Shown: positions 1,166 to 60,750 of the stretch, in pieces
Layout of the letters: every line of letters begins with the position of its first letter
How positions within the stretch are numbered: the stretch's first letter is position 1
Source: Amyelois transitella
Taxonomy: Eukaryota; Arthropoda; Insecta; Lepidoptera; Pyralidae
Direction: 5' to 3'
DNA: 64,000 nt
Assembly (NCBI RefSeq): GCF_032362555.1
Contig: NC_083517.1
Coordinates: forward strand, 2,252,001 to 2,316,000
Translations under genes and position numbers: made by a program
The notes under the pieces: model-generated
Seen by the model: the letters and a program-made list of their open reading frames with translations, nothing else
Databases searched by the model: none
What the model was told of the DNA's origin: nothing

Positions 1166-1250
1166 CATGTTCAGCTGAGTGACCTAATAATGTAATTGAG
1201 ATTCAGACAGTGACAGGTTGTTAGTCTATCGAATTAAAGAAGAATCCTAA

Positions 1251-1427
1251 CTTAACATACATACATACATAAAATCACGCCTCTTTCCCGGAGGGGTAGG
1301 CAGAGACTACCTCATTCCACTTGCCACGATCTCTGCATACTTCCTTCGCTTCATCCACATTCATAACTCTCTTCATGCAAGCGCGGCGGTTTCGGGTACT
1401 CTTGATTTGATGCTTTACCAGGACGTA
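1251..1427 (-). mobile_element. RTE 3'-end fragment
   Basis: Begins with CATA repeats and AAAATCACGCCTCTTTCCCG, the antisense of the RTE stop region and tail, and runs about 170 bp into coding sequence before diverging near ACTAACTAAC. Confidence 0.65.
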
Positions 1428-1634
1428 ACTAACTAACTAACTTAACTGCATATTAATAATGATCACAAAAAGAAATGATTACCAAATGTATCCGAAGACG
1501 ATCTGCCTGTAGAGTAGTAATATGAAAAACTTATGGTGAGGATTGAAAATGCTGTCACGGATAGCCTGCAACATAAAACAAATTGACGATCAAGAATAAT
1601 TAATAAAAAATTGAAATACAAATACTAGAAATAA

Positions 1635-1929
1635 CATGGTTCGGTCATGTGTTGAGGATGAATGAAAGCAGGTTGACTAAGCAGATATACAAGGAGAGTT
1701 TGGAGGGAAAGTTCGGAGTGGGAAGAACTAGACGAACGTATCTTGATCAAATTAAGGACGTCCTGGTAAAGGGTCAGGTCAAAAGTACCTACCCGAAACC
1801 GCCGAGCTTGCATGAAGAGAGTTATGAATGTGGATGAAGCGAAGGTAGTATGCAGAGACCGTGGCAAGTGGATAGAGGCAGTCTCTGCCTACCCCTCCGG
1901 GAAAGAGGCGTGAATTTTATGTATGTATG
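1635..1929 (+). mobile_element. 5'-truncated RTE fragment with 9-bp target duplication
   Basis: About 295 bp homologous to the C-terminal coding end of the RTE (GHV.RMNESRLTKQIYKES...GRTRRTYLDQIKDVLVKG) plus the TATG tail. TAGAAATAA flanks it at 1626-1634 and 1930-1938. It is more diverged than the 59601 copy and has frame breaks. Confidence 0.75.
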
Positions 1930-2062
1930 TAGAAATAATATGGGTTTTGAAGATAATGGTACATACTTTTTATAAGATATGAACTTTTATTATTATTGAA
2001 CGTTGAATTGTTTCTTATTAGTAATGATAAAAAAATTTACTAATGCTTTTTCATTAACTTAC

Positions 2063-5000
2063 ACGAATATGTAAAATCCCAATGAGTATTCCTCAGGTTT
2101 TCCAGTTTTACAGTACGCCACTTCGATTCTGGTGGTGTCATCCATGGGTGACAAATGGCTGATCTGCAGGAATGCCCTCGCAATCTTGGAGACTGAATGC
2201 GGCTCACACGCTGATGGTACACATAAACCCCATAAGGCTTTTGTCAAACTCCGTCTAAATTTTGTTCTTTTCTAAAACAAATACAGTGTGATAACTACTT
2301 TTATTACCCAAGTGTTTAATATAACAGAGAGAAATATTTTTATGTAAATCTTTAATTAATTTTCCTTTCAAGACGTAAGTATGGAAATTTAAAGAATAAG
2401 TAAGTATAAAAATTATAACACAATCTTTGGTACAGTGGACTACAGAGAAAGCCTAACGTATCCAATTTGGTATAAATTTTTATGAGGCCGTAGTCCACTA
2501 TCATAAATGAGGCAATAGGAGACTAAAAATATACCTTCTTTTGATATTTGTCTTGATAAACCTTCAACACCTTTACTTAATCTAAGCTTAGAAGCCTACA
2601 GCTTGGAATGCAAAGCAAACATTGAGAGAAGACAATGAAATATAAACGTACATATAAACATTCATATAGTCACGTCTATGCCACTTGCGGGTTAGACAGA
2701 GCTAACAGGTTTGAAAAGACTGAAAGGTCATGTTCAGCTGTACGTCTAAATGATGGAATTGAGATTGAAATAGTAACAGGTTGCTATCCCATCGGCTACA
2801 AAAGGAATCCCAAGTTCATAAACCTATCCCTTAATCGCCTTTTACGACATGGAGAAGAAAATATAGAGTGGTTCTTTTCTAAAGTGCACAAAACCACACG
2901 ACACTTAATAGAACGTGGTAAGATGGAATGCAAAACGCTTGCAGAAACATTTGACTCACATTAAGGTAAAGGTCGGCTGTAACATCAGGATCTCTAGAAT
3001 AACTTTCCTCGTCCAATTTCTCGGTGAGGGTTAAATTATTCACGCAGTATTTGAACTGTGGCATGTCTTCATTGACGTCCATCCTTTTGTCAGGGAACAG
3101 ACACTCGTCATAGTTTCCGATGTGAACACCTGCGCCATAGAGCTGCCCAATTGGCAGTTGTATTGAATCCAATACTGAAAGAGTTGTAGGAGACTAGAGT
3201 ACGCCCGCTTATTTCCCGCGGGAATTTCAGGAAACTCTTTCTTAGATGCCAAAGCCATGGTAACTATCTGCATGTAAAATATCAAGATAGGTTCAGTAGT
3301 TTCGCGCTGCATTGATCCGTCAGTTATCTTTTCGATTAATTTTTAAAATTAGATCGATGTAGGTAGGTAAATTCAATAAAATTCCATAAAGCCTAGCAAG
3401 TTCCTTTGGAAACTAGAAGACGAAATCTGTATCTGATGCCTGGGGGTTAAGGCGCGTGGTCTCAAGTACGGAATCCAGGATTGAGAAATGTTTACGATCA
3501 GGGGTGTGAAGGAAATTCACAATAAATCCTTTGCAGAAAAAAAAGCATAATCAGTGTTGAATTTACGTTGTCGCTTTTCACAACAGACCCAATTGGAGTG
3601 TCTCTTTTTTCAGACTGGAACCTAAAAGATTTATGATTATTGCAGTTATGACTTCATCAACAAATTTAGTTTTTCTGAGAACCTTTAACTGGCTTCTTTG
3701 CTAATTATGTATACTTAATGCTATTGATCTTCCTATTATACTCACTCCATACAGCCCATAATGTAAAATTCTTTGCGTGTGTCAGCGTCTTCATCATAGT
3801 ATTAAAACATGGAGTCTCGTCGCTGTTCCATTTTTGTGACTCAAGCGATTGTATAAGGATATCAATATTTGTGATATTGACGACCTCACGATCATTTTCA
3901 GTAACTGGATCTGTCTTAACTTGGCCTGTTTAAAATAAGAGTAATATTTTAAAATTGGCTCAACCTTTTTTAAAATGTTTATCTACATACTCCATGTTTA
4001 ATCTCAGGCCTTGAACTACCTCTATTCCAAATACATACATACATAAAATCACGCCTCTTTCCCGGAGGGGTAGGCAGAGACTACCTCTTTCCACTTGCCA
4101 CGATCTCTGCATACTTCTTTCGCTTCGTCCACATTCATAACTCTCTTCATACAAGCTCGGCGGTTTCGGGTACTTTTGACCTGACCCTTTACCAGGACGT
4201 CCTTAATTTGATCAAGATACGTTCGTCTAGGTCTTCCCACTCCGACCTTTCCCTCCACACTCTCCTTGTATATCTGCTTAGTCAACCTGCTTTCATTCAT
4301 CCTCTCCACATGACCGAACCATCTTAACATACCCTTTTCTATTCCTGTAACTACATCTTCTTTCACATCACAACATTCCCTTATCACGCTGTTCCTTATC
4401 CTGTCACTCAATTTCACACCCATCATACTCCTTAACGCTCTCATTTCCACTGCATTTATTCTGCTTTCATGCTTCTTTTGCCATACCCAACTTTCACTCC
4501 CATACATTAATGTCGGGACCAACACGCCCCTGTGCACAGCCAGTCGAGCCTTTTTGGATAGTTTCTGACTGCTCATAAAGGCATGCAAAGCTCCATTCAC
4601 CATGTTCCCCGCGTTCACTCTCCTTTCAATATCACTATCATACTTGCCATCTGATGTAAACTTTGATCCTAGATATACAAACTCTTTCACTTGCTCCACT
4701 TTTTCTCCTCCAATCAAAATATTACATGCTGTCATTTCTTTCTCCATTTCAAAAACCAGTGTTTTAGTTTTACTTACGTTCACTTTCATTCCTTTCTCTT
4801 TTAAAGCTTCATGCATACAGTTTACCATCTCCTGTAACTCCTCCGCTGATGACGCCAGTATAACCTGATCGTCGGCATAGAGCAGACATTTGACGAGTAA
4901 CTCATTCATCCTTAATCCACTTTTAGACTCTTTCAAATCTGTCAAACAGCTATCCATAAATAGGTTGAACAGCCACGGTGACGCAACACATCCTTGCCTA

Positions 5001-7817
5001 ACGCCTTTCTCAATCTTAAACCACTCAGTGTGCGCTCCGTTTATCCTGACACAAGCACTCGAATCCTCATATAAGGATTTCAGTGCTCGTATTAAGAGAC
5101 TGCTCACCCCATGCATAGAAAGTGCTGACCACAATTCATTCCTCTCAACTCTGTCATAGGCCTTTTCCAGATCTACGAATGTGCAATAGACTTTTTGACT
5201 CTTGGCCAAAAACTTTTCGGCTATGCACCGCAAGGAAAAGACCTGATCAGTACATCCCATTCCCTTTCGAAATCCCGCTTGAGCATCCCATATTTTTTCA
5301 TCAGTTTCATTCCTGACTCTATTAATCAATACCTTAGCATACAATTTGCCGACGACGCTAAGCAGGCTTATACCACGATAATTTTTGCAGTCCAGCTGTG
5401 ACCCTTTTCCTTTGTAAAGTGGCACGATAACAGCCTTACACCAATCTTTTGGTACTCGGCCGCTTCTCCAACACAAATTGAAAAGGCAGTACAACTGACT
5501 AGCTACTACGCCTTTTCCTGCTTTAAGCATCTCGACCGACACTCTATCACACCCAGCAGCCTTTCCCGCTTTCATACTCTTAAGTGCTTCCACAATTTCG
5601 AACATTTCAATTTCGCCTTCCATCTCATTCTCTTTTTCTTCGCTATAGCAGAAATCTTTCTTATTTCCTTCCTTTTTTCAAATAAACTTTCAAAATAGTC
5701 CTTCCATATCTTTAGTACACATTCTTCTCCTTTCACAACGCTACCATCCTGGCATCTGATCCTAGTCAGCTCTCTGGTTATAGTATTTCCTCGGGCTGAC
5801 CTTACGGATTCCCAGAATACTTTCAGATTTGACTGAAAGTCTTCTGATAGCCTTTTATCAAAATCCTCTTTATACTCTTCTTTCTTTCTAATCACAGTTT
5901 TCTTAACCAAATCTTTCATTTTCTTATATTCCTTACGTGCTTCATTCACATCTTCATCTATAACCTCTTGCATTCTTAAGTTAGCTTTTGCTGCTAACAA
6001 ATCCAGCCATGCTTTCTTCTTTAATCGCACAAGTTCTTGCACATCTTTACTCATCCACGCATTTTTGTGATTTTTTCCTTTCCTTCTTCTACTTACACCA
6101 CACACTTCAACAGCTACTTTCACAATTCTTTCTTTAAATTCCTTCCATCCATCTTCAATATCGCTCATTTCCTCTAAATCTTCAAATTCATCCTTCAGTC
6201 TATTAATATACTTCTTACCTACATCCATATCTTGCAAATTTTCTACTTTTACTCTTTCCAAAGCGCTGGTTTGCTCCCTTACCCTGTGCCGCCAGCGATT
6301 GAAGATACCCCTTATCCGGGATATCACCAGTAAATGGTCCGAGTCAATGCCAGCACCGCGATATGCACGGGTATCCAGCACTTTGTTCTTCAATCTTTCA
6401 TCTACAATCACAAAGTCTATCATACTTTTTAAAATACCTTCCACTCTTGTGTAGGTGTGGATCTCTTTATGTTGAAACATTGAGTTCGACACAAAAAGAT
6501 CCCACTCTAGACAAATTTCTAATACACTTCTTCCATTATCATTCACCTTTTCGTCACCAAACGCACCAAGCACCTTTTCATATCCATCACGCTTTACACC
6601 CACCCATCCATTAAAATCACCTAACATAATAATCTTCTCATTTGGCTTGGTAACTTTCAATACTTCTCTTACACTATTCCAGAACTCCTCGTTTTCGCTT
6701 TTTGCTGATGTTGTACCCCTCGAACCCACATCCCAAGGTGCATAAACACCTAGAACGAAGATCCGAGTGATTCCAACTTTCAGCCTAATCCATAGAAGAC
6801 GAGGGCTGACACACTCATACTCATTCACGCACTCAGCCATTCGTGCAGAAAGAATTAGACCGACCCCTTGACAGCCTCGGCTGGTACTGGAAATTCCAGA
6901 CCAATACGCCGTGTAAGGGCCGTGCTGCGTCGCGTCGCATCCTTTCCGCTTCGTTTCATTCACGCACAACACATCCAAACGTCTTTCATCCATCATCTGG
7001 CATACTTCCTCAATCTTATCCTTCATTCCTCCTCTTACATTCATCGTCGCAAAGCGGCTTTCAGCAGACCGCATACCGCTCCCGCCGGGAACGAGACGTG
7101 ATGGGGTGCGGACACCATCGCCGCCATCTAGGTGCTCTTTCAAAAAATTTGCATCCATGCGATTCCCACGAGACGCTAGGGAAAAATTTTGTCCGCCCCA
7201 GCAGAGCCCCGCATGCCAGGGTAAGGCTAGCCATTACCTGGGGGTCGCCCAACCCCATGGCGGAAGTGGCACGCTCGAGACTAGGCTCGCCCCTAGCCAT
7301 GCATCTATCGGCGCGGCAGACCTTAGATTGGCAGGGATTTACATTAAAGAGGAATCCCAAGTCTATCCCTTAGTCGGCTCTTACGACATCCGTGGGAAAG
7401 AGATGGAGTGGTCCTATTCTTTTGTAATGGTGCCGGGAACCACACGGCCTTCCAAATATCACATAATAAAAGGTAATCATAGAAATCTTTGACATTTAAG
7501 TAACCTATGTTTAAAATTTTACTTTTTAATAAACAAAGTGAAATAATAAGAAAAATCTCCTTGTATAAGTATTAACATACAACCATATAATCACGTCTAT
7601 ATCCCTTGCGGGTTAGACAGAGCCAATAGTCTCGAAAAGACCAATTGGCCACGTTCAGCTGTTTGGCTTGATGATAGAATTAAGTTTCAAATAGTCATAT
7701 GAGGCTAGCCTATTGCCTAAAATAAGGATCCCAAGTTTATAAGAACATTTTTTTTTTAATTTTAATGAACAACTTACCTATTGCAATTAGCACGAAAATT
7801 ATCCAAGCCAAATTCAT
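2063..7817 (-). CDS. Gene D: NRF-6-like membrane acyltransferase, 5' part (exons 1-4), continues beyond the left edge
   Basis: Not covered by one ORF; assembled from splice sites. Exons: 7778-7817 (starts MNLAWIIFVLIA, a signal peptide), 3746-3925, 2960-3174 and 2063-2271. All junctions are GT-AG and the phases agree; this part encodes about 214 aa. The second exon ends in NFTLWAVW and joins the third to give LWAVWILDSIQLP, then IGNYDEC and a Cys-rich stretch; the fourth has ALWGLCVPSACEP and ends in GFYIFV. This is the order of the NRF domain in C. elegans NRF-6/NDG-4-type proteins, and the last exon ends in the same phase as exon 3 of genes A and B. The acyltransferase exons were not found in 1-2062 and should lie to the left. 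The first intron is about 3.9 kb because it holds a full-length RTE. In this family the NRF domain is extracytoplasmic and a multi-pass acyltransferase follows; the substrate is unknown. Confidence 0.75.
2652..2905 (-). repeat. RTE-derived short repeat, full length
   Basis: Has the family landmarks in order: CACGTCTATG, GACAGAGC, GTAACAGGTTGCTA, CGCCTTTTACGACAT, AAAACCACACG. It ends close to the exon at 2960 of gene D. Confidence 0.75.
4034..7449 (-). mobile_element. Full-length RTE-like non-LTR retrotransposon in gene D intron 1
   Basis: The element runs from a 5' end at 7449 (reading GGCCGTGTGGTTCCCGG) to a 3' end of TATG-type repeats at 4034. A 9-bp direct repeat, TTCCAAATA, flanks it at 4025-4033 and 7450-7458, so this is a complete insertion of about 3.4 kb with both ends intact. 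A 5'UTR of about 290 bp precedes the ORF, and only about 15 bp separate the stop codon from the 3' tail, as usual for RTE. It sits in the first intron of gene D, in the same orientation as that gene. Confidence 0.85.
4049..7158 (-). pseudogene. RTE endonuclease-reverse transcriptase ORF, broken by one frameshift
   Basis: The 5' part (7158-5572, 528 aa) is an APE-type endonuclease with LCVNETK, MLGDFNGWVG, MIDFVIVD and IDSDHLLV. The 3' part (5623-4049, 524 aa) is a reverse transcriptase with FVDLEKAYD, KGVRQGCVASP and the catalytic YADD (about residues 249-252 of that part). It ends with the RTE-type C-terminus WFGHVERMNE...GRPRRTYLDQI. The frames meet at an A-run near 5629-5640: one more or two fewer A would join them into a single protein of about 1 kaa. 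The two overlapping ORFs therefore look like one gene with a slippage mutation. Domain order and the single ORF match the RTE clade. Confidence 0.85.
7574..7743 (-). repeat. RTE-derived short repeat, 3' part
   Basis: From ATAATCACGTCTATATCCC to AGGATCCCAAGTTTATAAG; the 5' end is missing. It adjoins exon 1 of gene D. Confidence 0.65.
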
Positions 7818-11095: not shown

Positions 11096-12308
11096 CACTT
11101 CGAAAGTAAAAAAAAAAAAAAAATGGTTGCGTGGGTCTGGTCACGATCCAATACGGGTGAGGTTCCCTTGCAAAGGTTCGTCGAGGGGAGGGTCAGACAG
11201 GAGTCGCTTCGTATAAGAAACTGACTTTGAGAGGTGAGAACGCAACCGCTTCCTAAGCTTATTAGCCTTTCCCTTAGTCGCCATTTATAACATCCACGGG
11301 AAAGATATGGAGTCATCCTATTCTAAATAGCCGGCAACCTTAAGTAGGCACATTATATTAATACATACATTTTATGAAGCGCAACTTATTTATTATTGTT
11401 TTACTTAGTTTTCAGTGGTTACCCAAAATTATTTATTCGGAATGAACCTACTAAGGTAAACAATATTGTAGTAACACCTATTTAAATAATAAATTTTTTT
11501 TCATTGAACGTGCTGAACGTTCGAATTTCTTTTCTATTCGAATCTCCACTGTTTGGCTCTGTCTACGCCGTAGTAGTAGTCGTTTTATAGGTATGTATAT
11601 ATAAATAATATAATAAACACACTGATATGATAACATCGCTTCGGAAGGTCGGCCTAATAAAGATAAACAGATAAATCTGACTGTTTTTAATATCATAACG
11701 CACACCGCATACACACAGCCACGATTCATTTTTATGGATTTGATAATGATAACATTCTGTCCAAAAAAAGTACAGTGCGTATATAATAATAGCCAGGGCT
11801 ATTCTGCGATGACGTAATGACCGCTGGAGCCAGTGGCCCACGGTACGGCCATTTAGTGTGACGTGTTATTTATGTGCCAGTAGTCGGATTAAAAACAAAA
11901 GGTTATTAGAGTGTTAACTGTTCCAGGTTCAAACGTCAATTGATGGCACGGATTTTTCGAGTGATACATTATGTGCCAGTAACGCAATTTAAAAAAGTTA
12001 AACTTGTTAGTTCAGTGTTGAGTGTTCCAGGTTTAAATATTGATGAAGTGTAATTTGATTTAAAGGGCAACACTCGTATTGTTTGAAGCTTATTTTTGTT
12101 TTGTATTTTGGTAGGTATTTGACGGTTAATTAATAAAATTAAGCACCAATAAGTTAGTACAACATTTAAAGAGTTACTTTAGTTTAATCTGAACCCCAAT
12201 AACACTACCCAACAAAATTGAAGTTAAGGAGAGCAACAGAGACCAGAGTATGATATTCTAGGTAAAACGACCACGCTTAATTCGAATCTGAGCTTAGAAT
12301 TTTGCCTA

Positions 12309-14373
12309 GACGTCAGGTTTTTTTTTTTTTTTTTTCTTTATTAATTGTACAATTTGTTACAGAAAAAATAAAAAACCGAGATATAAAATAGCAAGAAATC
12401 ATTGTAATTAATAAAAAATAAACACATAAAATTATTAATAATGTATATAATCTATTCTAAAGTTGTTTTTCCCTTTGAATGTGGAGATTTTCTTTTATAT
12501 TCGCAATCTGATTCTCTTGTAAGGAACCAACAGTAATCGCCCATCATTGCGGAGTCCCATCGACCCTGATATCTTTTTTCCATCGTAAGAATGTCTTGAT
12601 GAAATCTTTCACCCATCTCATCACTCACAGCTCCCAAATTTTCGGGGAAGAAACTTAGATGTGAGTGCAAAAAATGAATTTTCAGCGACATTCTACAGCC
12701 CATTTTTTGGTAGCTTTTCAGCAGATTTTCTATAAGTTCTTTATAGTTTTCTGCTTTTCTATTCCCTAAGAAGTTTGTGACCACATTTTGAAATGACTTC
12801 CAAGCTTGTAATTCGGTGTCATTTAACTTTTTCTCGAAGTCTTCATCTTTCATCAGTTTTCTTATTTGCGGACCCACAAAAATACCCTCTTTCAGTTTAG
12901 CGTCACTCAATTTAGGAAAAACGCTTTTTAAATATAGAAAAGCAGTACTTTCTTTGTTCAGAGCTTTTACAAAATTTTTTATTAGTCCCAACTTGATATG
13001 AAGAGGGGGCAGAAGAACATTTTTGGGATCAACAAGTGGCACAAATTTTATATTTTCTTTTCCTGGTTCAAAAGAATCTCTATTAGGCCATTCTTTGACA
13101 ATGTAATGCTTTTGAGTTGCTCTGCTGTCCCAGAGACAAAGGAAGCAACAAAATTTGGTAAAACCTCCCTGAAGACCCAGTAACAAAGCTATGACCTTTA
13201 AATCTCCACATAGCTGCCATTTATAACGATCATAGTTTATAGATCTAAGGATAAGGGACATATTTTCGTAAGTTTCCTTCATATTATAAGCGTAAGCTAC
13301 AGGAATCGATGGTTTTGTATTTCCGTTGTGCAACAAAACCGCCTTAAGACTCGATTTAGAGGAATCTATAAACAATCTCCACTCATTGGGCTGATGAGAA
13401 ATATTTAAATTTTCTATTAGTTTATCTGGATCTGTACAAAAGCAGACATTGTTTTCAGAAGTAAACAACGTAGACAAATGTTTGTTACGATCTCTAAACA
13501 CACTTATTTTTGTTTCTTTTGCTAATAAATTCCATTGTTGTAACCTGGAGCCCAAAAGTTCAGCGTTTTCTTTTGTAAGGTTAAGGTCTCGGGCTAAATC
13601 GTTAAGTTCAGCTTGATTTATCAAGTGGGGTTCATTAGTACTTATCACAAAATTTGGATCAAATGCTGAAGGTGCACTACTGATACAATCTGCACTAGTG
13701 GAAGCAATATCGAGTGGTGGAACCGGTATTGGAAATTCTTGGCCATGCGGAACAGGTCTTGTAGATGAAGAAGTATCAGGATAGACAATATTGATTTTCG
13801 TCTTCCTGGAATGTCCACTGGTCTTAGTTAAGCAAAAGTAGCAGTCCAAGCTGTGATCAGTAGGCTCACGCCACATCATTGGCATTGCAAACGGCATCGA
13901 AGAACGCTTGCCAGTCATCCATTTTCTCAGACTAGCAACACAAGTAATGCAGCAAATATGAGGAGCCCATTTTTTATTTTGGTGACCAATTGTAAAACCG
14001 AAATACGCTTCGTACATCACTTTAACATTCTCACTTACTGGTCTCCTTTGAGTTACGGGTGTAAAATTGCCACAAATGAAGCAAAACGTATCAGGGGAAT
14101 TCACACAACTTATTTTATCAGAATTTTCACTCATTTTAATAACAAATTTTAAATATAACCAAGTTATTACAGAAAATACGCAAAGCCAGTATTTGTTGTG
14201 TAGTAGTGTCATAAGAAAAATAAAGATACCCTCATTTTATACTTGTCTATCTATCATATCATATGAATTATAAAGATACCCTCAAATAAATAGTTGACTA
14301 TCATCTACATTTTTATCTTAGCCTGTATGCGGGTAAATTATAAAAAAATATATTTAAAAAAAAACCAGACGTC
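12309..14373 (-). mobile_element. TIR-bounded DNA transposon candidate carrying the 560-aa ORF
   Basis: The left end reads GACGTCAGGTTTTTTT and the right end, reverse-complemented, GACGTCTGGTTTTTTT: one mismatch in 16, continuing into T/A runs. Both ends are flanked by TA (12307-12308 and 14374-14375), or by CTAG if the whole palindrome is counted, so the target duplication is TA or CTAG. The only ORF fills most of the 2065 bp. An alternative reading, with ATTTTG on both sides as a 6-bp duplication, needs unequal TIR starts and is less tidy. Confidence 0.6.
12452..14134 (-). CDS. Intact 560-aa ORF of a multicopy transposon-like protein family (putative RNase-H-fold transposase)
   Basis: One uninterrupted frame. 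The start at MSENSDKISC is preferred over an ORF start 26 codons upstream, whose leader looks spurious. The N-terminus has Cys pairs (CFIC, CCITC, then CYFC) spaced like a zinc-binding DNA-recognition module. The centre has LFIDSSKSSLKAVLL (Asp257), CGDLKVIALLLG (Asp311) and FCCFLCLWD; near the C-terminus are FLHSHLSFFPENLG and SDEMGERFHQDI (Glu509). An Asp strand with a basic hairpin, a second Asp and a late Glu is the pattern of an RNase-H-like DDE nuclease; that assignment is inference. I recall closely similar uncharacterised proteins in many copies in arthropods and Hydra. It lies inside matching terminal inverted repeats at 12309 and 14373. No stop or frameshift is seen. Confidence 0.7.
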   Translation of the reverse strand: MSENSDKISCVNSPDTFCFICGNFTPVTQRRPVSENVKVMYEAYFGFTIGHQNKKWAPHICCITCVASLRKWMTGKRSSMPFAMPMMWREPTDHSLDCYFCLTKTSGHSRKTKINIVYPDTSSSTRPVPHGQEFPIPVPPLDIASTSADCISSAPSAFDPNFVISTNEPHLINQAELNDLARDLNLTKENAELLGSRLQQWNLLAKETKISVFRDRNKHLSTLFTSENNVCFCTDPDKLIENLNISHQPNEWRLFIDSSKSSLKAVLLHNGNTKPSIPVAYAYNMKETYENMSLILRSINYDRYKWQLCGDLKVIALLLGLQGGFTKFCCFLCLWDSRATQKHYIVKEWPNRDSFEPGKENIKFVPLVDPKNVLLPPLHIKLGLIKNFVKALNKESTAFLYLKSVFPKLSDAKLKEGIFVGPQIRKLMKDEDFEKKLNDTELQAWKSFQNVVTNFLGNRKAENYKELIENLLKSYQKMGCRMSLKIHFLHSHLSFFPENLGAVSDEMGERFHQDILTMEKRYQGRWDSAMMGDYCWFLTRESDCEYKRKSPHSKGKTTLE

Positions 14374-16841
14374 TAGACAGATTTTGGTAAGCATATTTGT
14401 AATCAGTAATGCTAGTGCTACATCGTGATATAGGTCAGTGTTCTGTTGCCCGAACCTTGTAGACTAGTGTAATTAGATAAACTTATTCACCTGATTTTTA
14501 TGTTATCTGTCTGTTTGCTTTTGTCTTCTCCGTAAGCAATAGAGACGTGATGATGCGCGTGTTATACTTATATTATTTTATGAATATATTCTACATATTT
14601 GCGATGTAAAATTAAGGCGTAGAAAATGTTTTGTTAATCAAAGGTTTTTGTTTGCTTAAACAATTATTAATTAATTTCGGCGTGATGGTCTACGAAAAAG
14701 ACTTTAAGGGAAATTTCAAATGCTCACGGCCTTGATTAGGCGTTGATAAGTCTATTATCAATTTTTCAAACTGATAGTTGAATTAAACATCATAATAACC
14801 TGAAGTTACATAAGCAAAAAAAGGATAGAGGGATAAAGACGTAATAATATGTATGTATGTGTAAAATGACATGAATGTAATTATTTTTTAAAAAGATACA
14901 AGGTATCACTTAATGAGGAAAAATTTTGTACGTAGTCACTTCCTATTTCTAACATTATACCTTAAAGAAATATGTCTGTCTGTTACGCGTTAACTGTTAT
15001 TAACCACCTCTTTTTGGAGGCAGGTCTTTTTTGTTATTAGATGATGCTATTAGACAGTTTAGATGTGACCTTGATTAAAGCAACAATTATAATTAAAGAT
15101 GGTACAGAAATGTTACCTCGTAATACAATAAGTAGTAGTAATATTGATTTGTCGTAGCGTAGCAGTTTATACGCGTAAAATTTAAAAAAAATCTCCTAGC
15201 CATTTTACGGCCAAGTTTCTTCCTCCTGGCTTTAGTCCAGGTTGAATACTCATCACTTTAGAGAGCAGCTCGGGGTATGCCTTCGGCCATGGATCCAGGA
15301 TTGGGTGAGTCAGGTTTCTAAACGAAACGACTCCCATCTGACCTCCGCGATCTTCTCGGGAGGGGACTTAACCTATATTGGATCGATCACGGCAACACAT
15401 CCAGTTGCCTGAATGTGCAGGTTTATTAATGATGTTTTCCCTCACCGTAGAGCATCGGTTAGTATTCAAACTAATGTCTAACTTTGGTACATGGTCGAGG
15501 TGGAATCTTATGCCATTAGTATGTTGTAATCCATTCCTTTTCTACTTATATTATAAATGCGAAAGTTAACTTAAGTAATATTATAAAATAAAAGAAAACT
15601 ACTGAATGGGATTTCATGAAATTTTGCACATAATAACATAGCTTAGACTTACAATAACATAATAAGTAATTTTAATAAAAATCCTGTTGCTCTGTTCACG
15701 TGGACGAAGTCGCGGGCAACAGCTATAGTTACCTAAAAAAAAAATTTGTGCCTTATCATAGTCGCTAGGAGGAAAAAAGTAACGCTAGTATCATTTAACT
15801 TGGTAGCTCTTTTTATGTAGTGTCATATCTGTAGTTTTATAATTTGTATTGTTCAGTTCAGTATAATGGTTCAGTCACCTCCATCCACGGTAATTGAGTT
15901 ACATATGTATGTAATGAGTTTTACATTCTAACAGACTTATGTTGATATATGACGTCACCAATTGCGGAACATAAGATTTGTTTTAACCTATTTGCTTTCT
16001 ACGATGTATCTATTTTTAGTATATCATCTAGCTAGTAACCTACTATAGATTTGCTGTTGTAGACTTCAAATCTCTGAGTATAATGTAAGTGATACTTCAT
16101 ATCTCTCTCTTATCTTTGCTTGTTCCCTTAAGTAGGAAAGAGGGGAGGAAAATGTCGAAAAGCGAACCTTGGGCCCGAAGGATGGCGGTGGGAGCTAGGT
16201 GATACGAGTACCCTCATTATTATCTTGCATAGTCCCAAACATGCCATAACTCTCTGGAGAGGAGTCCGATTTTTCGTTCCGTCCGAGATTTCGATTTTGA
16301 CCAAGACCCTGGATTGTACAACATGAATGGGTAAGACAGGTTTTTACAATCCCGCCTGACCTCCGTAGGGTAGATAATTACCCATAATGCATCACAGTTT
16401 CACATCATTACCTGAATAAGTTGTAGTTTTCTCATGCTGTTTTCTCTTATCGATTGTCGGCCAACAATTAAAATAATGTAAGTACTTCTTATTCCTAAAT
16501 TTAAGAGCTAACTCTTTTCGATGGAGTTAAGTGGAGCGTCCTCCATTAATTTTTTTTCTCTGCATTTTTTTTTGTTAGTAGTGATGATGCGTTTACTATT
16601 TATTTTACTCTTGGTCTTCGTCTTCCTTATATAAATACAAAACTCTGAAAAGAACTATTGTTACATAGCTTGGTAATTACAGAAATTGTGCATCAAGCAA
16701 GTACCTTAACCATTTCAATCACCGAAGCTCTCCAACTACATTCTCTTCTTTCTGCATCTTTTTCAATTGTAGTCTTTATTAATAAATTAAAAGCCTAAAA
16801 CTCGTAATTTGACTATTTCCAGATGAGGTGACATAACCCCA
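14374..16841. other. Spacer upstream of the carboxylesterase gene
   Basis: Contains repeat relics at 15219-15500, 15590-15735 and 16225-16400. The rest is plain AT-rich DNA; a 5'UTR exon and promoter of the esterase probably lie here but cannot be placed. Confidence 0.45.
15219..15500 (-). repeat. Interspersed repeat with GGATCGATC / CTTTAGTCC landmarks
   Basis: TTCCTCCTGGCTTTAGTCC, GATCCAGGATTGGGTGAGTC, CTCCCATCTGACCTCCG, ATTGGATCGATCACGG. It is the inverse of 26680-26995. Decayed relatives lie at 11125-11240, 16225-16400, 27385-27480, 52415-52515 and 62120-62245. Confidence 0.6.
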
Positions 16842-19350
16842 ATGGGTTGTAAGAAGTGGTTGGTTCTCTGGTCGCTGTGGGCTGCGCGGCTGGTGCGGCA
16901 GCCGACGGAGCCGCTGCAGGTCAGCGCTGGCTGGCTCCGAGGATCCATAGCAAATGACGGTTCCCATGAGGTCTACTATGGTATACCGTATGCGACCGTT
17001 CGGGGACGGTTTCAGGTTAGAATAGTTTCAGTTTGTGTTGCGGTATTGATTGTGTTCTTGTCACTGAAAGTAACAGGTCTCGCGGTTTGTGTGTGATTTA
17101 CTCTTTTCATGTATATTCGATGATTACGGGTACTCCTACCTTTTTTAAGACATTCGAAATTTGGTCCTAGACGATGACGAGCATGGCTACAGATCTATAG
17201 GTAATTTAACAAATTACGAGAGGCTTACTCTAAACTTTTTAAATTTAGAATAAAATACTGTTTCGGACGTCTGCTGAACGTGTTTTTCTTTCTTTTTTTT
17301 AGCTTTTTCTCCTCATGGCTGATGTTTTCCTATAGACTTCTCAGTATCCGCGTGGTTTTTGCTCAAGATATAATTTAAATGTCGTTGGATTTTCATGACC
17401 GATGTTCTTTTTCCAGGCACCGGGTCCTGAACCAGTGTGGGATGATGTATATGAAGCTATCAATGAGAATGTTCGTTGTCGCCAACGTAAGAACGAAAAA
17501 TCTGATGAAATGATAGGCGTTGACAATTGCCTTATAATCAATGTGTATAAACCACTGAATGTTGAAGATAAACCCTTAGCTGTCATGGTGTTCATACACG
17601 GTGGTGCATTCTTCCAAGGATCCGCATCACCTTTCATGTATGGTCCACAGTATTTAATAAAGAAGGGGGTTATTTTAGTAACCTTGACTTATAGGCTTAA
17701 CTTGCAAGGATTCCTCTGTTTGCGGACAAAAGAAGCCCCAGGTAATGCTGGAATGAAAGATCAAGTGGCTGCTTTGAGATGGATTCAACGAAATATTAAG
17801 GCGTTTGGAGGAGATCCCGATAATATTACGATATTCGGAGAGAGTGCTGGAGCGGCTTCGGTCTCATTCTTAGTACTTTCACCGATGGCAAAAGGTCTAT
17901 TCCACAAAGCTATAACGCAAAGTGGATCCGCAATTTCGTCTTGGGCCTACCAGTTCAAACCGGTATACATGGCAAGTTTGCTTGCAAAAACTATGGGTTA
18001 CGAGACCCAAGACCCACATAAACTGTACAATTTTTTCATGCAGAAATCGAATACAGAACTTATTATTCCTAGAGTACCAAGAAAAAAGGGTGACACGGTC
18101 ATATCTGAGATATTATACACGCCATGCGTTGAAGATATTATAGAGGGAGAGGAGCCATTTCTGACAGAAATACCTTACGAAATATTATCTAAAGGAAATT
18201 TTAATAAAGTTCCCATGATAACAGGCATCAATGATGCAGAAGGTATTTTGTTTGCGGCTTTAGAAAACGAAACTACTATAGCAGAAATAAACTTTGTTGC
18301 TAGCCTTCCAAAAGATTTGGTTTTTCCATCTGAAGAGGAGAAACGGAAATACGGTGAAAGATTAAAGAGTATATACCTAGGTGATGAAGAAATTACAGAG
18401 AAAACTGTCTCAGGATGGATAACACTTGGCGGTGATGAATATTTCACTTATCCTATTTTAGAAGAAACTAATCTTATAGCTAAAGCTAGTGACACACCTG
18501 TGTACAACTACTTATTTGCTTATGATGGAAGAAGAAATTTGGCCAAGTTATTTTACAACAAATTCAAAAACATCCGCGGGGCAAGCCATGCAGACGAGCT
18601 GTTCTACATATTTTCATCTCATTGGATAGGATCTCTGATGGAGAATAAGATGATTGATACAATGACAACATTATGGACCAATTTTGCTAAATATGGGTAA
18701 GTTCTTTGATTTTTATAAAAAAAAATATATAAATTGTTTAATAACCACTAAACAATTTACATTTTTTTTATATAAAAATCTTCGATCTGTTTAATTTTAA
18801 AATTCAAAGAATAAATGGCGATTTAAAACCGATATAGACATGATTAAATTATTACCGAAATAATTAAATTTAATCAACTGTTCCCTATTAGATAAAATTA
18901 AAGAGATAGGTGCCTATATAAGTACTTATATGATAAAATATTTGATTAGTTATATCCATTACTATAATTTTTACCTTGTAATGTCATCATACAATATACA
19001 TATAAACTGTCATATATTTACTTTAAATCTCTCTATGTTTTCCCTAAATGTAAGAGCTTGTGTAAAGATTAAAAAAAAAATGTGCCTAGCTCCTAAAAGA
19101 TTTATTAGAGCAGGTATGCCGTACGCTATTTAAAATTAATATAATAATTATTTTTAAGAAAATTAATTTGGTTTCCAGGGACCCAACACCAGAAAACACC
19201 GATCCCCCAGTGAGATGGCCGCGCGTGAACCCCGCGGATCCACAAACACTGGTCATCAACACCACACTCTCAATACGACCAATGTGGGGAAGCGAGGCAT
19301 TGCAGTTTTGGCGGGAAATGTACTCTAAATATCGTAGGAAAGAACGATGA
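16842..19350 (+). CDS. Carboxylesterase (COE family, alpha/beta hydrolase), complete, three exons, 541 aa
   Basis: Exons: 16842-17015, 17417-18696 and 19179-19350, with GT-AG introns and an in-frame total of 1626 nt. The junction between exons 1 and 2 reads RGRFQ/APGPEPVW, the usual esterase sequence at that site. Catalytic features are all present: oxyanion-hole HGGAF (about residues 119-123), nucleophile elbow GESAG (Ser201), the acid in NDAEG (Glu333) and His449 in GASHADELFY. Length 541 aa is normal for insect carboxyl/choline esterases. These enzymes hydrolyse carboxylic esters, including lipids, pheromones, juvenile hormone or xenobiotics; the sequence does not say which. The N-terminus, MGCKKWLVLWSLWAARLV, is hydrophobic and may be a weak signal or anchor. 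An AG at 16821-16822 with an in-frame stop just after it suggests an upstream 5'UTR exon. The gene converges on gene A, with 737 bp between the stop codons. Confidence 0.9.
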
Positions 19351-20087: not shown

Positions 20088-23000
20088 TCAACTATCATTT
20101 TTTGTGTTAATTTTATCATCTATCCTTGCTGTACCATTTTTTTCAGGATGTTCAATAACCGGTTTTTGTTTCTTGATGCCTGAAATAAAAATAAATAAAT
20201 TAAAAGACATGTTGTGAAAAAGAAAATTTATGTTCTGAAAAAATAAATCTAAGACTGACAGTCTTGAATGCGACGAATTTAGCGCCGTCTACAAAAGAAT
20301 AAGAGATTTTCGCAAATCCCACGGAAATATAGTTTTTGGCGAGACGAAAGGTACTATGTCCTTTTCCGGACTCCTAATTATATATACGTGATATTTCAAA
20401 AAGATTAATTCAGTAGATAACTCGTGAAGAGGTAACACATAAATAAACTTATTTTTGCATTAAGTTTTTACTTTTGCTTTTTAGTTGGAATTATACTTAC
20501 CATTAACAAACAAACAAACTTACTTTCGCAATTATGATATGCATACATACATATGGTCACGTCTATATCCCTTGCGGGGTAGACAGAGCCAACAGTCTTG
20601 AAAAGACTGAATGGCCACGTTCAGCTATTTGGCTTAATGATAGAATTGAGATATAAATAGTGACAGGTCGCTAGCCCATCGCCTAAAAAAAGAATTATAC
20701 ATGATTTTCCTTAATTATTTTAAGGCATGTACAATATGTGTTATAAATTTCCTGTTATGTTATGTTATTTATGAGCAAGGAAGCATATACAATAATTAGG
20801 ATAATTGCGTCTTTTATAAATATAACTTATATTTTTTCTATCACTCGTTTATCTCGTACTATAAAGATTGACCCCTAAGCGCCAGCTCTCCAAACGTCCG
20901 ATTGAATACGTGCTTCACTTAAAATACTGGACGATTTCGTACAAAATTCCTGTGTATCGACTATCGTGTTTTGCACCGAACATTTATAAATATCTTTCAA
21001 TTTATTTTTCAACGTCTGCGATACTTTTTCATGAATTGGGATATTTTGTAGATACGTGTGGTGAGTAGTTGTTACATTTTTACCTCCGACCAAAAAGGAT
21101 TGTTACAAGTTTGACGTGTCAGTCCATATATAGCTCATTGCTTTACATATATACATACATACATATAGTCACGTCCATATCCCATGCGGGGTAGACAGAG
21201 CCAACAGTCTTGAAGACTAAATGGCCACATTCAGCTATTTGGCTTAATGATAGAATTGAGATTCAAATAGTGACAGGTTGCTAGCCCATCGCCTAAAAAA
21301 ATAATGCCAAGTTTGTAAGCCTATCCCTTAGTCGCTTTTTACGACATCCATAGGAAAGAGATAGAGTGATAGGGAACCACACGGGTATAATATGAGTTGG
21401 GATTATACGTACCATCACCTAACATCAACTTGAATAGCACAGAAAACGGGGCATCTATCAGCAGGCAGGCAACGAACGACACAATGAATGTGAACGCTAT
21501 GTACGCTAATGATTTGAAGGCCTGAAATAAAGAAATTAATAGAATATAATAGAATAGATTTATTTTCAAAATTGGATACAAGGTATCACTTATTGACATC
21601 ATCATCACATCACTTAAATCTAATCATAACTACTACCGCTTCCAAAGCGCATGTGTAGAAGAAGCGGCGGAACAAACTACACTGCAACATTTCATTCCCT
21701 TTGCAGGGGAATCTAAACCATCACGGTTATACTTTCAGTTGTCTGAATATGCTAATTTCCTCACGACGTTTTCCTGCGCCATGACAGTATCGGTACGCAA
21801 TCAAACTAATGTACAAACCAGAAAAGAGATATCGGTACATTGTCGAGCTAAGATTAGAACCTATGTCTTGATGCGCGAATTCACAATCCACAGAGTTATG
21901 TGCACGCACGCAAAAATCTTTTGATTATATACATACATATAGTCACGTCTATATCCCTTGCGGGGAAGACAGAGCCAACAGTCTTGAAAGACTTAAAGGC
22001 CACGTGCAAATGTACGGCTTGTTAATGTAATTGAGATTCAAATAATGACAGGTTGCTAGCCCATAGCCTTCAAGAAGTATCTCAAGTTTATTAGCCCTTA
22101 GTTGCCTTTTACGAAATACATCGTTATATACGCTTAGGCATTTGATAATTGACTATTCTTTAAAAAAAAAAACAAAGCGTCTGTCACTTACATAAGCGGG
22201 AACTGAGAAAAACACGGGTGCTACTAGAGTAGAATTGATGGTGAACTGGAATGGGTAGTGAAGTAGAAACATCGCGTAAGACAGACGAGCCGGCAGCTTC
22301 CACACGTCTAAACTCAAAAACCAATTGATTGGACCTGCAAACAATTTGATAGGAGAAACATAAAATAAATAAAAGCAAAATTTAAGAAGTAACATTGGTG
22401 ATCAAATTGAAAACATTTCTCAAAGAAAAAGTATTAAGGGGTGTCAAGACGAAGTGAGCACAATATTGGAGAAATTAGTTTCAACGGTTTTTTACACATA
22501 ATATATAAGATATAATATATATAGTTGTAAATGGCTAACTCTCTATTATTTTTAGTGACAAAAAAGAATACCTATAGTTGTCCGCTCCCGAATCTTTTTT
22601 GATTTTATACATATACATACATACATATGGTCACGTCTATATCCCTTGCGGGGCAGACAGAGCCAACAGTCTTGAAAATACTGAATGGCCACGTTCAGCT
22701 ATTTTTCTTAATGACAGAATTGAGATTCAAATAGTGACAGGTTGCTAGCCCATCGCCTAAAAAATAATCCCAAGTTTGTAAGCCTATACCTTAGTCGCCT
22801 TTTACGACATCCATTGGAAAGAGATGGTGTGGTCCTATTCTTTTTTTGTATTAGTGCCGGGAACCACACATTTTATAAGCTTTGTAAAAGACAATTAATT
22901 GTACGTAAAAGTTTCCAGCAACCAAATAGACATTAAAGTAGATTGTTTTTGTATAATTACCTGCATAACCATGCACACATGCTAGAATGATCCATCCCAA

Positions 23001-32000: not shown

Positions 32001-35000
32001 TCTGTTGTGGGTACAATTTGTGATGAAAATCCTTTCTGATCTGAAAAGGGTAAAATAATAAACCTACCTTTGTCACTGTTTAAATAAAATAAGAAAACAA
32101 AAATTTGTATATTATTTTATGCTGCTTTATGTTAAATAATCAATGTTTGTATTATTTTTTATTAAGAACTGACTATTCGTGAACTGGAATCTTGCGAATA
32201 CATTCAGTCAGAAAAGTATCGGGAATGGATTATTTATTTATGGTTCCAAATTCAAATTTTTGTTTTTTTTGTTGTTGTTAGATTGGCAGAACTGTTTTCC
32301 ATTTTGGCGCGGAGTTTGAGTTGCATCTGTTGTTTACATTAAATACAGTGCTATTTTTAGTTATATCATATCTAGTGTGTATTGCTAATTTCATAATGGA
32401 TAAAAACATCGAACAAAGAGTTTGTCTTAAATTTTGCATTGCCAATGGAATATCGTGTTCGGAGTCACTGAAAATGTTACAGAAGGCTTACGGTGAATCG
32501 ATTTTATCAAAAACTCGTGCTTATGAGTGGTACAAAGCGTTCAAAAGCGGTCGAGATGTGATGGAAGATTTGCCTCGCTCTGGTAGGCCATCAACGTCTG
32601 CAACTGAAGTTAACATCGCAAAAGTGAAGGAAATAGTGACTGAAAATCCTCATTCAACTTTGAGAGAGATAGCCACCGAACTTTCTGTATCTCACGAGTC
32701 GATCCGTACCATTTTAACTAATAATTTGGGTATGAAACATGTTGCCGCTCGGCTAGTCCCAAAAGACCTGAATTTTTTTCAAAAACTCAATCGCATGAGA
32801 GTCGCTGAGGACATGCTAGAACGAGTCAATTCCGACCCAACATTCATGAAACGCATTGTTACTGGTGACGAGACGTGGGTTTACGAGTTTGACATGCAAA
32901 CTAGTCAACAAGCTTCGGAGTGGCGCCTTCCAACTGAACCGAAACCGAAAAAACCACGCCAAAGTCGTTCAAAAGTCAAAGTCATGTTGACTGTTTTCTT
33001 TGACTATCGCGGTGTTGTGCACTCGGAATTCTTGCCGGAAGGTCAAACGGTAAATAAGGAATATTATTTGAGTGTTATGCGGCGTTTAAGAGAGCAAATC
33101 CGACGAAAAAGGCCAGATTTGTGGAAAGAAAATTCTTGGATTTTGCACCATGATAATGCACCTTCGCACAAGGCCATCATTGTGAACGAATTTTTAACCA
33201 AACACTCAACAAATACCATCGAGCAACCACCATATTCACCAGATATGGCTCCAGCCGACTTTTTTCTTTTTCCTAAACTCAAATTACCACTTCGTGGCAC
33301 CCGTTTTCAATCGGTAGAAGACATAAAAGAGAATTCGCGGCGAGAACTGACCCCAATTCCGGAAACGGCGTTTAAAAAATGTTTTGATGATTGGATTATT
33401 CGTTGGCGTAAGTGTATCGTTTCTAAAGGAGCATATTTTGAAGGTGATAAAATAAATTTGGATGAATAACAAACAGTTTGTGTATTATTGATCTTTTCCT
33501 GCTACTTTCTTGACAGAGTAGTACTTGATTTTTTTAATAATTTGAATTTTGTGAATATTTCTAAGGCGACTTAACCGATTTTAATTAGTCACGAACTTAA
33601 AAATTGTGTTCAAAAAGATATTACCAGAAACAGCAGACTTGCCTAATCACGGTTGAGTTTTTAAATCAATTCTTGAAAACATTACATTGATCAATTTAAA
33701 GTCATTGTGACACGTCAAAAAACGGCTAAAAATATATTTGTGCAATGTATTCTACTGTTATCAGAGTTTACGATTGCACAAATGATGATTTTGAGTAACA
33801 AAGATAATTATTAAAGCGATTGATCTACATTGCATGGAAGATATTGCTTTAGCACAGATCCGAATGTATGGGAAATCAATATATTTACTACACTAAATTT
33901 AAATTTCTTTCTTTTTCGAAAATACATTCAATTTAATCTCATAAAATTGGCATTTTTATATAAAAATGTTAATACATCTTACCTTGCTTCTGAATAAAAG
34001 TGTGATTCAGATCGTAACATGTGCTCAAAAGGGTGAGAAGACCTATAAAAGATAATAACACCCTGAAAACAGAAAATAAATATACATATAGTCACACAGT
34101 CTATATCTCTTGCGGGATAGACAGAGCCAACAGTTTTGAAAAGATCGAAAGGAAACGTTCAGCTGTATGATTTATGATGGCACTGAGATTGTGAGATGAA
34201 TTTATATTTGAATTTGAATTTTTTGAATTTTGAATTTATCATACATACATATGATCACGTCTAGCGGGGTAGACAGAGCCACCAGTCTTGAAAAGACTGA
34301 TTGGCCACTCTCAGCTGTTTGGCTTAGTGATAGAATTGAGATTCAAATAGTGACAGGTTGCTAGCCCATCGCCTAAAAGAGGAATCTCAAGTTTATAAGC
34401 CTATCCCCTAGTCGCCTTTTACGACATCCGTGGGAAAGAGATTGAGTGGTCTTATTCTTTTTTGTAATGGTGCCGGGAACCACACGGCACTATATACTTA
34501 TATATACTTATCATATATACTTAAAAAGCGCTTTCTGTGAAAATGAAAATTTATTTAATTTATCCTTTTATTTTAATTAATTTATTGTTGAACACCGATT
34601 ATATGACTAGACGTTATGACATCTAATACCTTAGCGAAATTTCATCGAATCCAACATATTGTTTTTGAAATGAGAGCAAAACGTATGTTGTAAAATAAAT
34701 TTTGCTATGCAGCCGACTCTTAAGAAATAGAAGTCTGTCAAGTAGTTTTTTAAACACAGTCGGAAACCTTTTATTCACATTCAAAAATATCTTTTATTTC
34801 TTCACAATCAACACTGAAACTTAAAGTAAAGTAAGTACATGATTATGTAAAACAATTTTTGAGACTGTGAGAGACTGGCATCTGAACTAAGCAGAGCTTA
34901 TCCCAGTTCACCAGCCTCTCCACACGAGGTTTTATATGACGGCAATTTCCCGTTCCTAACGTCCACATGTATCGTAGCCAACTCTCTGTCAAAGTTATAA

Positions 35001-58268: not shown

Positions 58269-58532
58269 TACATACATACATACATATGGTCACGTCTATA
58301 TCCCTTGCGGGGTAGACAGAGCCAACAGTCTTGAAAAGACTGAATGGCCACGTTCAGCTATTTGGCTTAACGATAGAATTGAGATTCAACTAGTGACAGG
58401 TTGCCAGCCCATCGCCTAAAAAAGAATCCCAAGTTTGTAAGCCTATCCCTTAGTCGCCTTTTACGACATCCATGGGAAAGAGATGGAGTGGTCCTATTCT
58501 TTTTTGTATTGGTGCCGGGAGCCACACGGCAC
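58269..58532 (-). repeat. RTE-derived short repeat, full length
   Basis: CATACATACATACATATGGTC to GGGAGCCACACGGC. One of the least diverged copies; lies between genes B and C. Confidence 0.85.
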
Positions 58533-58917: not shown

Positions 58918-60750
58918 TTAAAAAGCTGTTTTCAGTTCTTGATTTGGTCTGAAATCGACATCAGTTTTACCATTTTCCAACTGATCAGTTGCCACCTTGA
59001 GTTGCGGGGATCCTTTAGCGCCTATAAAGAAAATAAGATTTTTTCATAAATGTTATAAAAGGGTATTTTCTAATTTATAGTACTTTAAATTGCGATCTTT
59101 TTTCAATGGAGTATTTCATAAGTTATCTGAATAATTAATTGGGGAATTATATTTAAGGGTAGCCCTAAAAACTGGTTCTTCTTGCTAATTAAAATTTACT
59201 CAGAGTTTACTATTTATTTCTCTGTTCTATTGACTCGTGTCCCGTTGACAATAAATCCTTTTAAATGCTTATCTGGAAGAAATCCTTGAAGCTTAAGTCT
59301 GCTTCAACACCTTAATAAATTTGTTGGAAAACTAACCACCTCCTAATAACATCTTGATGAGGGTCGAGCACGGCGAGTCCACAAACAAGGTGATGAGGAA
59401 CGCCGACATCACCGCCAAACTGAAGTCTGTTGTGAATCTGTGAATCTGTAAATGGATTAAGTCTTAGTATCAGATGGTAAATAAAAAAAAGGGACAAATT
59501 TCACTGATTGAGTCGCCTCGAAGTAAGTTCGAGACTTGTGTTACGAGATACTAACTCAACGATACTATATTTTATAATAAATACATATATAGATAAACAT
59601 GGTTTAAGATTGAGAAAGATTGAGAAAGGTGTTAGGCAGGGATGTGTTGCGTCACCGTGGCTGTTCAACCTATTTATGGATAGTTGTTTGACAGATTTGA
59701 AAGAGTCTGAAAGTGGATTAAGGATAAATGATTTACTCGTCAAATGTCTGCTCTATGCCGACGATCAGGTTATACTGGCGTCATCAGCGGAGGAGTTACA
59801 GGAGATGGTAAACTGTATGCATGAAGCTTTAAAAGAGAAAGGAATGAAAGTGAACGTAAGTAAAACTAAAACACTGGTTTTTGAAATGGAGAAAGAAATG
59901 ACAGCATGTAATATTTTGATTGGAGGAGAAAAAGTTGAGCAAGTGAAAGAGTTTGTATATCTAGGATCAAAGTTTACATCAGATGGCAAGTGTGATAGTG
60001 ATATTGAAAGGAGAGTGAACGCGGGGAACATGGTGAATGGAGCTTTGCATGCCTTTATGAGCAGTCAGAAACTATCCAAAAAGGCTCGACTGGCTGTGCA
60101 CAGGGGCGTGTTGGTCCCGACATTAATGTATGGGAGTGAAAGTTGGGTATGGCAAAAGAAGCACGAAAGCAGAATAAATGCAGTGGAAATGAGAGCGTTA
60201 AGGAGTATGTTGGGTGTGAAATTGAGTGACCGGATAAGGAACAGCGTGATAAGGGAATGTTGTGATGTGAAAGAAGATGTAGTTACAGGAATAGAAAAGG
60301 GTATGTTGAGATGGTTCGGTCATGTGGAGAGGATGAATGAAAACAGGTTGACTAAGCAGATATACAAGGAGAGTGTGGAGGGAAAGGTCGGGGTGGGAAG
60401 ACCTAGACGAACATATCTTGATCAAATTAAGGACGTCCTGGTGAAGGGTCAGGTCAAAAGTGCCCGAAACCGCCGAGCTTGCATGAAGAGAGTTATGAAT
60501 GTGGATGAAGCAAAGGAAGTATGCAGGGATCGTGGCAAGTGGAAAGAGGTAGTCTCTGCCTACCCCTCCGGGAAAGAGGCGTGAGTTTATGTATGTATGT
60601 ATGTATAGATAAACATCCAAGACCCAGGCCAATTAGAAAAAGTTCTTTTCTCATCATGCCCTGGCTTTGATCCGAACCCGGGACCTCCGGTGTCACAGAC
60701 AAGCGTACTACCGTTGCGCCACAGAGGCCGTCAAAAATGTAAAATATAAC

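Follow-up and report, generated by a model that had tools for sequence, protein, structure and literature searches.

Chapaev3 transposons are cut-and-paste DNA elements of animals that belong to the CMC (CACTA-Mirage-Chapaev) group. They have been found in insects, a bracovirus, fishes, lampreys, reptiles and mammals, and their transfer from one animal species to another has been reported (PMC4079192). As the available text of that account describes them, Chapaev elements have CAC and GTG at their termini, and the Chapaev3 elements insert between A and T, duplicate a TWA target and encode a DDE transposase with C(2)C, LH and H(4)H motifs. The silkworm element Garfield is 2289 bp long and encodes a 556-aa protein; Garfield and Merrow have two exons, and most other Chapaev3 elements have a single one (PMC4079192). 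A zinc finger named 'Chapa' has been described at the N-terminus of Chapaev3 proteins (PMC4411706).

Chapaev, Transib and RAG1 share motifs and have been placed in one large group (PMC12730594). RAG signals have spacers of 12 and 23, and the accessible part of one account states that outside V(D)J recombination such asymmetry is known only from some Transib families (PMC8355894). ProtoRAG, with 27 and 31, prefers asymmetric ends, and most Transib ends are symmetric (PMC8289069, available text).

Here we analyse a transposon lying in a 64-kb stretch of Amyelois transitella DNA (the window). Judged by structure and motifs, the interval 12203 to 14469 is in all likelihood a Chapaev3-type DNA transposon that moves by cut and paste, is intact and has been mobile recently. 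A preliminary description of the locus placed the ends about 100 bases too far inward. What makes the element worth following for specialists is the asymmetry of its ends, rather than the family to which it belongs.

Extent of the transposon and its copies in the genome

We searched the 327-Mb assembly (33 contigs) with the element of the preliminary description as query. The search yielded at least 22 near-identical copies, one of them in two pieces, which make up family 1, and a second set of loci with about 65% DNA identity to the query; only the best candidates were scored, so the counts are lower bounds. The ends were scored in 21 of the 22 family 1 copies, including that of the window. 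The remaining copy, L029 (contig C11), was left out because an insert splits it and its ends are unmatched. This 5.4-kb insert (1204 to 6586), with a 5-bp overlap at the junction, has frames that look LINE-like by eye.

Aligned to the window, the common sequence of the copies reaches about 12200 on one side and about 14470 on the other, and then breaks off. To the base, the element runs from CACTACCCAACA at 12203 to ...TAGACTAGTG at 14469, and the main features are as follows.

12203 to 14469, minus strand (the strand of the gene): whole transposon of family 1, 2267 bp, CACTACCC...CTAGTG; the common sequence of the copies stops here and the flanks differ outside
12200 to 12202, no strand: target duplication, left copy, TAA, with A before it; matching 3-bp duplications in 19 of the 21 scored copies
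14470 to 14472, no strand: target duplication, right copy, TAA, with T after it; the same 19 copies
12452 to 14134, minus strand: transposase gene, 560 aa, stop codon included; defined by its frame and by alignment to relatives

The matching duplications read TTA in ten copies, TAA in eight and TAT in one, so that all but the last (18/19) are TWA. When left and right flanks were paired at random, a mean of 9.2 copies matched, and 19 was reached in none of 100,000 trials. An A precedes the duplication in 19 of the 21 copies and a T comes after it in 19. CAC begins 20 of the 21 elements and GTG ends all of them. The two copies without a matching duplication are L014, in which the first bases are altered (GAT instead of CAC), and L018, which has TAA and TTA at its two sides.

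All these copies are very alike: pairwise substitution among the 21 averages 0.14% and does not exceed 0.44%, and a full-length, stop-free frame is kept in 17 of the 22. By the likeness of its copies, family 1 has moved recently, and it may still be active.

The loci of the second set form family 2, whose protein has 58% amino acid identity to that of family 1. Seventeen loci were read and 15 scored with both ends; L036 and L040, each with one end interrupted or displaced, were left out. The unit runs from CACTGGTCAACA to TGTTGACCAGTG and measures 2093 bp in 14 copies and 2095 bp in one. Every scored copy has a matching 3-bp duplication (TTA 7, TAA 2, CTA 2, ATA 1, TTT 1, TCA 1, TAT 1), preceded by A in 14 of 15 and followed by T in 15 of 15; nine of the duplications are TWA and six are not. 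Random pairing gave a mean of 4.1 matches and reached 15 in none of 10,000 trials. Matches of 4 bp were seen in none of the 21 family 1 copies and none of the 15 family 2 copies. A TA target like that of Tc1/mariner elements was considered for both families and is rejected by their 3-bp duplications.

Do unoccupied sites tell the same story? Joined flanks of 35 copies (20 of family 1, 15 of family 2) were compared with the collected DNA, and three gave spanning matches. Two of these, both from family 2, are clear: L043 has a paralogous empty site in L026 (97% over 106 bp), and L044 sits in an abundant repeat, an unoccupied copy of which, in L011, shows a single CTA. For family 1, the collected DNA held only a weak, gapped match, of L022 to L014.

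A protein search of the genome, in which the best 75 of 177 candidates were scored, reached down to 38% identity. The related families have 47-58% protein identity to family 1, CAC...GTG ends and mostly 3-bp duplications. L047 and L049, of 2052 bp and 2031 bp, have CACAGG at their ends and TAA repeats beside them; here the matching repeat helped to pick the ends, and the same end sequences were later recovered in other copies. Among single copies outside families 1 and 2, six of eight have matching 3-bp repeats, which are absent in C19 and in L048, the ends of the latter having been chosen by likeness to C24 and not by rank. Counting related ends once (L048 with C24; L047 with two C32 copies and C4; L049 with C19) leaves five end families: families 1 and 2 and those of L047, L049 and C24.

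The window holds several other features.

4049 to 7158, minus strand: frames of a non-LTR retrotransposon, with reverse transcriptase and endonuclease (Pfam)
59676 to 60584, plus strand: fragment that, by eye, is a near-copy of the final part of the reverse transcriptase frame
32396 to 33469, plus strand: intact mariner-type transposase frame of 357 aa (Transposase_1, HTH_48)
17402 to 18700, plus strand: 432-aa stretch of a carboxylesterase gene (COesterase, E 6e-109); the transposon is about 3 kb away
35424 to 35681, 58269 to 58531 and 22613 to 22869: examples of a repeat of about 260 bp that matches the window at more than 20 places and the collected loci at further ones; L044 is inserted in a copy of it

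The transposase and the classification of the element

The open frame of 560 aa noted in the preliminary description stands. It lies on the minus strand and probably begins at the ATG at 14134, since the first methionine of the relatives aligns there; the first in-frame ATG lies upstream at 14212 and would extend the protein to 586 aa (frame 12452 to 14212). In all four full-length families D257, D311, C330-x2-C333, L378-H379, H487-x4-H492 and E509 are invariant. The residues singled out beforehand (Asp257, Asp311, the Cys insert and Glu509) are all among them. The N-terminal Cys pairs (18/21, 62/65, 98/101) are conserved, and their position would fit a Chapa finger. Frame, copies and residues together bear out the initial idea of a single-ORF DNA transposon with terminal inverted repeats and DDE-type residues.

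Sequence databases add little. The transposase has no significant match in Pfam, NCBIfam, PHROG or the PDB sequences, where neither RAG1 nor any other chain was matched. The Pfam model zf-AD weakly matches three of four family members (best E 0.0028); in the window protein the N-terminal Cys region, residues 18-73, is weakly zf-AD-like and falls below the cut-off. A relationship between zf-AD and the Chapa finger is conceivable. AlphaFold, run from the single sequence, gave a model too poor (mean pLDDT 35.8) to speak for or against an RNase-H core. Pattern-based scans, which can miss distant relatives, found no relatives in viral and prokaryote contigs, and a motif search of the literature returned no related match.

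We call the transposon Chapaev3-type because it combines CAC and GTG ends, a TWA target between A and T, the DDE, C(2)C, LH and H(4)H residues and one ORF of about 550 aa. As far as the available text of PMC4079192 describes them, Garfield, Merrow and Conan have in common with it the CAC...GTG ends, the 3-bp TWA duplication flanked by A and T, and the DDE transposase with the three further motifs; Garfield and Merrow differ in having two exons where the window transposon has one frame. Compared in this way with the named Chapaev3 elements, by published features, the transposon is very probably of this known animal type and not a new kind. The earlier view that it belongs to no named superfamily is very probably wrong, since the outer ends, the target and the motif set have all been published for Chapaev3 (PMC4079192, available text).

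Could the transposon instead come from a different lineage within this large group, such as EnSpm/CACTA, Mirage or an unnamed animal lineage? The ends of family 1 do read CACTA. EnSpm/CACTA elements share with the window transposon the CAC...GTG ends, the 3-bp duplication and membership of the large CMC group (PMC12730594, accessible part), and a comparison with Chapaev3 by features leaves room for such a reading. However, the relatives of the window family do not keep to CACTA: CAC...GTG termini are found in all five end families, and their starts vary between CACTA, CACTG and CACAG. The weak zf-AD match is the only one to any Pfam model; Transposase_21 had no match in the window protein at E up to 10, a search that may overlook a very remote relative. 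The target and the motif set, moreover, are those reported for Chapaev3 in the available text of PMC4079192. We therefore consider another lineage very unlikely.

Transib, ProtoRAG and RAG1 resemble the transposon in their CAC termini, in a DDE transposase with a C2...H2 zinc site and in bipartite ends, as described in the accessible parts of four accounts (PMC8355894, PMC8289069, PMC7204232, PMC4411706). Transib and ProtoRAG differ in the duplication, given there as 5 bp, against 3 bp in the window transposon and family 2.

Layout of the two ends

Comparison of the two ends of each family picks out three blocks. One end, the long end, has its inner blocks deeper than the other, the short end. 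In the window copy the blocks are placed as follows.

12203 to 12214, plus strand: block 1 of the long end (gene's 3' side), CACTACCCAACA, which runs into an ACAAAA stretch
12233 to 12240, plus strand: block 2 of the long end, GCAACAGA, from base 31
12306 to 12323, plus strand: block 3 of the long end, CTAGACGTCAGGTTTTTT, base 104; left inverted repeat of the preliminary description
14359 to 14376, minus strand: block 3 of the short end, CTAGACGTCTGGTTTTTT, base 94; right inverted repeat of the preliminary description
14442 to 14449, minus strand: block 2 of the short end, GCAACAGA, from base 21
14458 to 14469, minus strand: block 1 of the short end (gene's 5' side), CACTAGTCTACA

The terminal 9-12 bp make up block 1. 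In block 2 the two ends share a match of 7-9 bp that is peculiar to each family and begins at base 17-21 of one end and base 26-31 of the other. Block 3, at a depth of about 94-114 bp, often consists of a palindrome with T's after it, CTAGACGTC in family 1 (bases 104 and 94) and CTACGTGTAGTTTT in L049 (bases 96 and 106).

It was the block 3 pair of family 1 that had been proposed as the ends of the element: GACGTCAGGTTTTTT at 12309 and GACGTCTGGTTTTTT, inverted, at 14373. Part of this holds. The pair GACGTC[A/T]GGTTTTTT is real, inverted and near-identical, with TA (within CTAG) outside both repeats. At up to three mismatches TAGACGTCWGGTTTTTT has only two matches in the window, both exact, where 0.48 were expected; two were reached in 8 of 100 shuffles. 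The repeats are not, however, the ends of the element: flank comparison, suggested at the outset as a check, shows that the 21 scored copies all have common DNA beyond them for about 100 bp on each side, up to the CAC...GTG ends. Nor do TA or CTAG represent the target duplication, which is found instead, as 3 bp, at those outer ends.

The preliminary model can be stated in a stronger form, in which a separate, TA-duplicating transposon bounded by the GACGTC repeats (12309 to 14373) is perhaps nested in a small CACTA-type element. The near-perfect pair with TA or CTAG outside would fit it. Yet the outer left 110 bp, used as query, has 22 matches in the genome and all belong to the copies, so the outer left DNA is never seen without the gene, and the nested arrangement is ruled out. 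GACGTCWGGTTTTTT has 44 genome matches, 43 within the 22 copies and one alone; no free pair of such ends, and no mobile unit bounded by the inner repeats, was found in the genome. Common outer DNA and confinement of the pattern to the copies rule out the repeats as element ends. In L028 the inner right repeat is missing and the outer right DNA is still common with the other copies. Family 2 (one copy tested), L047 and L049 encode related proteins and have CAC ends, and GACGTC is absent from all three. Since L049 has a different palindrome at nearly equal depth, the GACGTC pair belongs to the end layout as one of its blocks. We give the model of a separate inner transposon almost no credence.

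The GACGTC palindromes with their T-runs, about 95-107 bp in, are thus the innermost of the three end blocks, and probably sites for accessory protein binding. Inner subterminal sites away from the ends, some of them palindromic, are bound by accessory domains in Hermes (a hAT element) and piggyBat. The transposases and duplications of those elements are unrelated to those of the window transposon.

A shift of 9-10 bp between the two ends is present in all five end families of the genome. Blocks 2 and 3 are shifted together in four of them; family 2 has a shift of 10 in block 2, and its block 3 is seen at the long end only. Among 81 shifts tried for each family, the best were +10, +10, -9, -10 and -9 (families 1, 2, L047, L049 and C24). 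At shifts 9-11, a range fixed after seeing the data, the run scores add up to 45; in 1000 Markov-resampled sets the mean was 2.2 and the highest value 11. Taken singly, the families had their observed scores reached in 0, 5, 0, 0 and 0 of 1000 resamplings in the same order, which makes family 2 the weakest case. Other copies have shifts of 8, 10 and 11 (L047 group), 10 (C19) and 9-10 (L048). In the L047 group (L047 and L050-L055, which include the two C32 copies and C4) an A/T run in the long-end spacer varies in length, and the shift therefore ranges from 8 to 11 bp.

The long end is not tied to one side of the gene: it lies at the 3' side in families 1 and 2 and at the 5' side in the other three. 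The motif [A/G]CAAAA occupies bases 10-15 of all five long ends and of none of the five short ends, whichever side the gene is on. Between groups, ends of like type align better than ends of like side in four of six family pairs and tie in two, with means of 7.7 and 3.7, respectively.

Pairing of the ends and the 12/23 rule

How might such ends be used? The N-terminal zinc-finger part of a single transposase (its 'Chapa' region) would bind the two ends, the DDE core would excise the element, and insertion would follow at an AT-rich site with a 3-bp stagger. In the synapse, one long end would be paired with one short end. Such long-short pairing is probable, we infer, because the 9-10 bp difference is present in all five end families while the long end may lie on either side of the gene.

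The offsets of block 2, counted after the first seven bases, are 13/23 in family 1, 12/22 in family 2, 13/23 in C24, 9/18 in L047 and 10/20 in L049; the start of block 2 is set by the match found, which affects these spacer counts. They recall the 12/23 spacers of RAG. As in the RAG signals and some Transib families, as far as the cited texts describe them, the two ends differ by about one turn. The second block here differs from that of RAG signals in having no fixed nonamer and in varying between families. The available text of PMC4079192 does not mention end asymmetry for Chapaev3, and we found no report of it for Chapaev in the open-licence literature.

We tentatively propose that Chapaev3-type transposons obey a 12/23-like rule, in which one long and one short end stand one helical turn apart and only long-short pairs are cut efficiently; this is possible, though we would not call it probable. 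Alternatively, the one-turn asymmetry may have been inherited from one ancestor, or serve gene expression at one side, and have no role in end pairing. The asymmetry is seen in five end families of one genome and one protein family, and in only two arrangements, with the long end 3' in families 1 and 2 and 5' in the other three. Because there are only two, a single switch would explain them, and with one genome and one switch sufficing, common descent is a fair alternative. Against it, a family's two ends have few matching runs outside the blocks and the shift is nevertheless kept at 9-10 bp, and [A/G]CAAAA marks the long ends irrespective of gene side. We judge the chances of an explanation without a role in pairing to be about even.

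The window transposon is a young, probably functional Chapaev3-type element with further families beside it in the genome. Its end layout bears on the origin of the 12/23 rule in antibody-gene recombination: a one-turn asymmetry kept across five families would make that origin testable in a simple, one-protein system. If Chapaev3-type transposons do follow such a rule, the rule would extend beyond RAG and Transib and might predate them, or it would have more than one origin.
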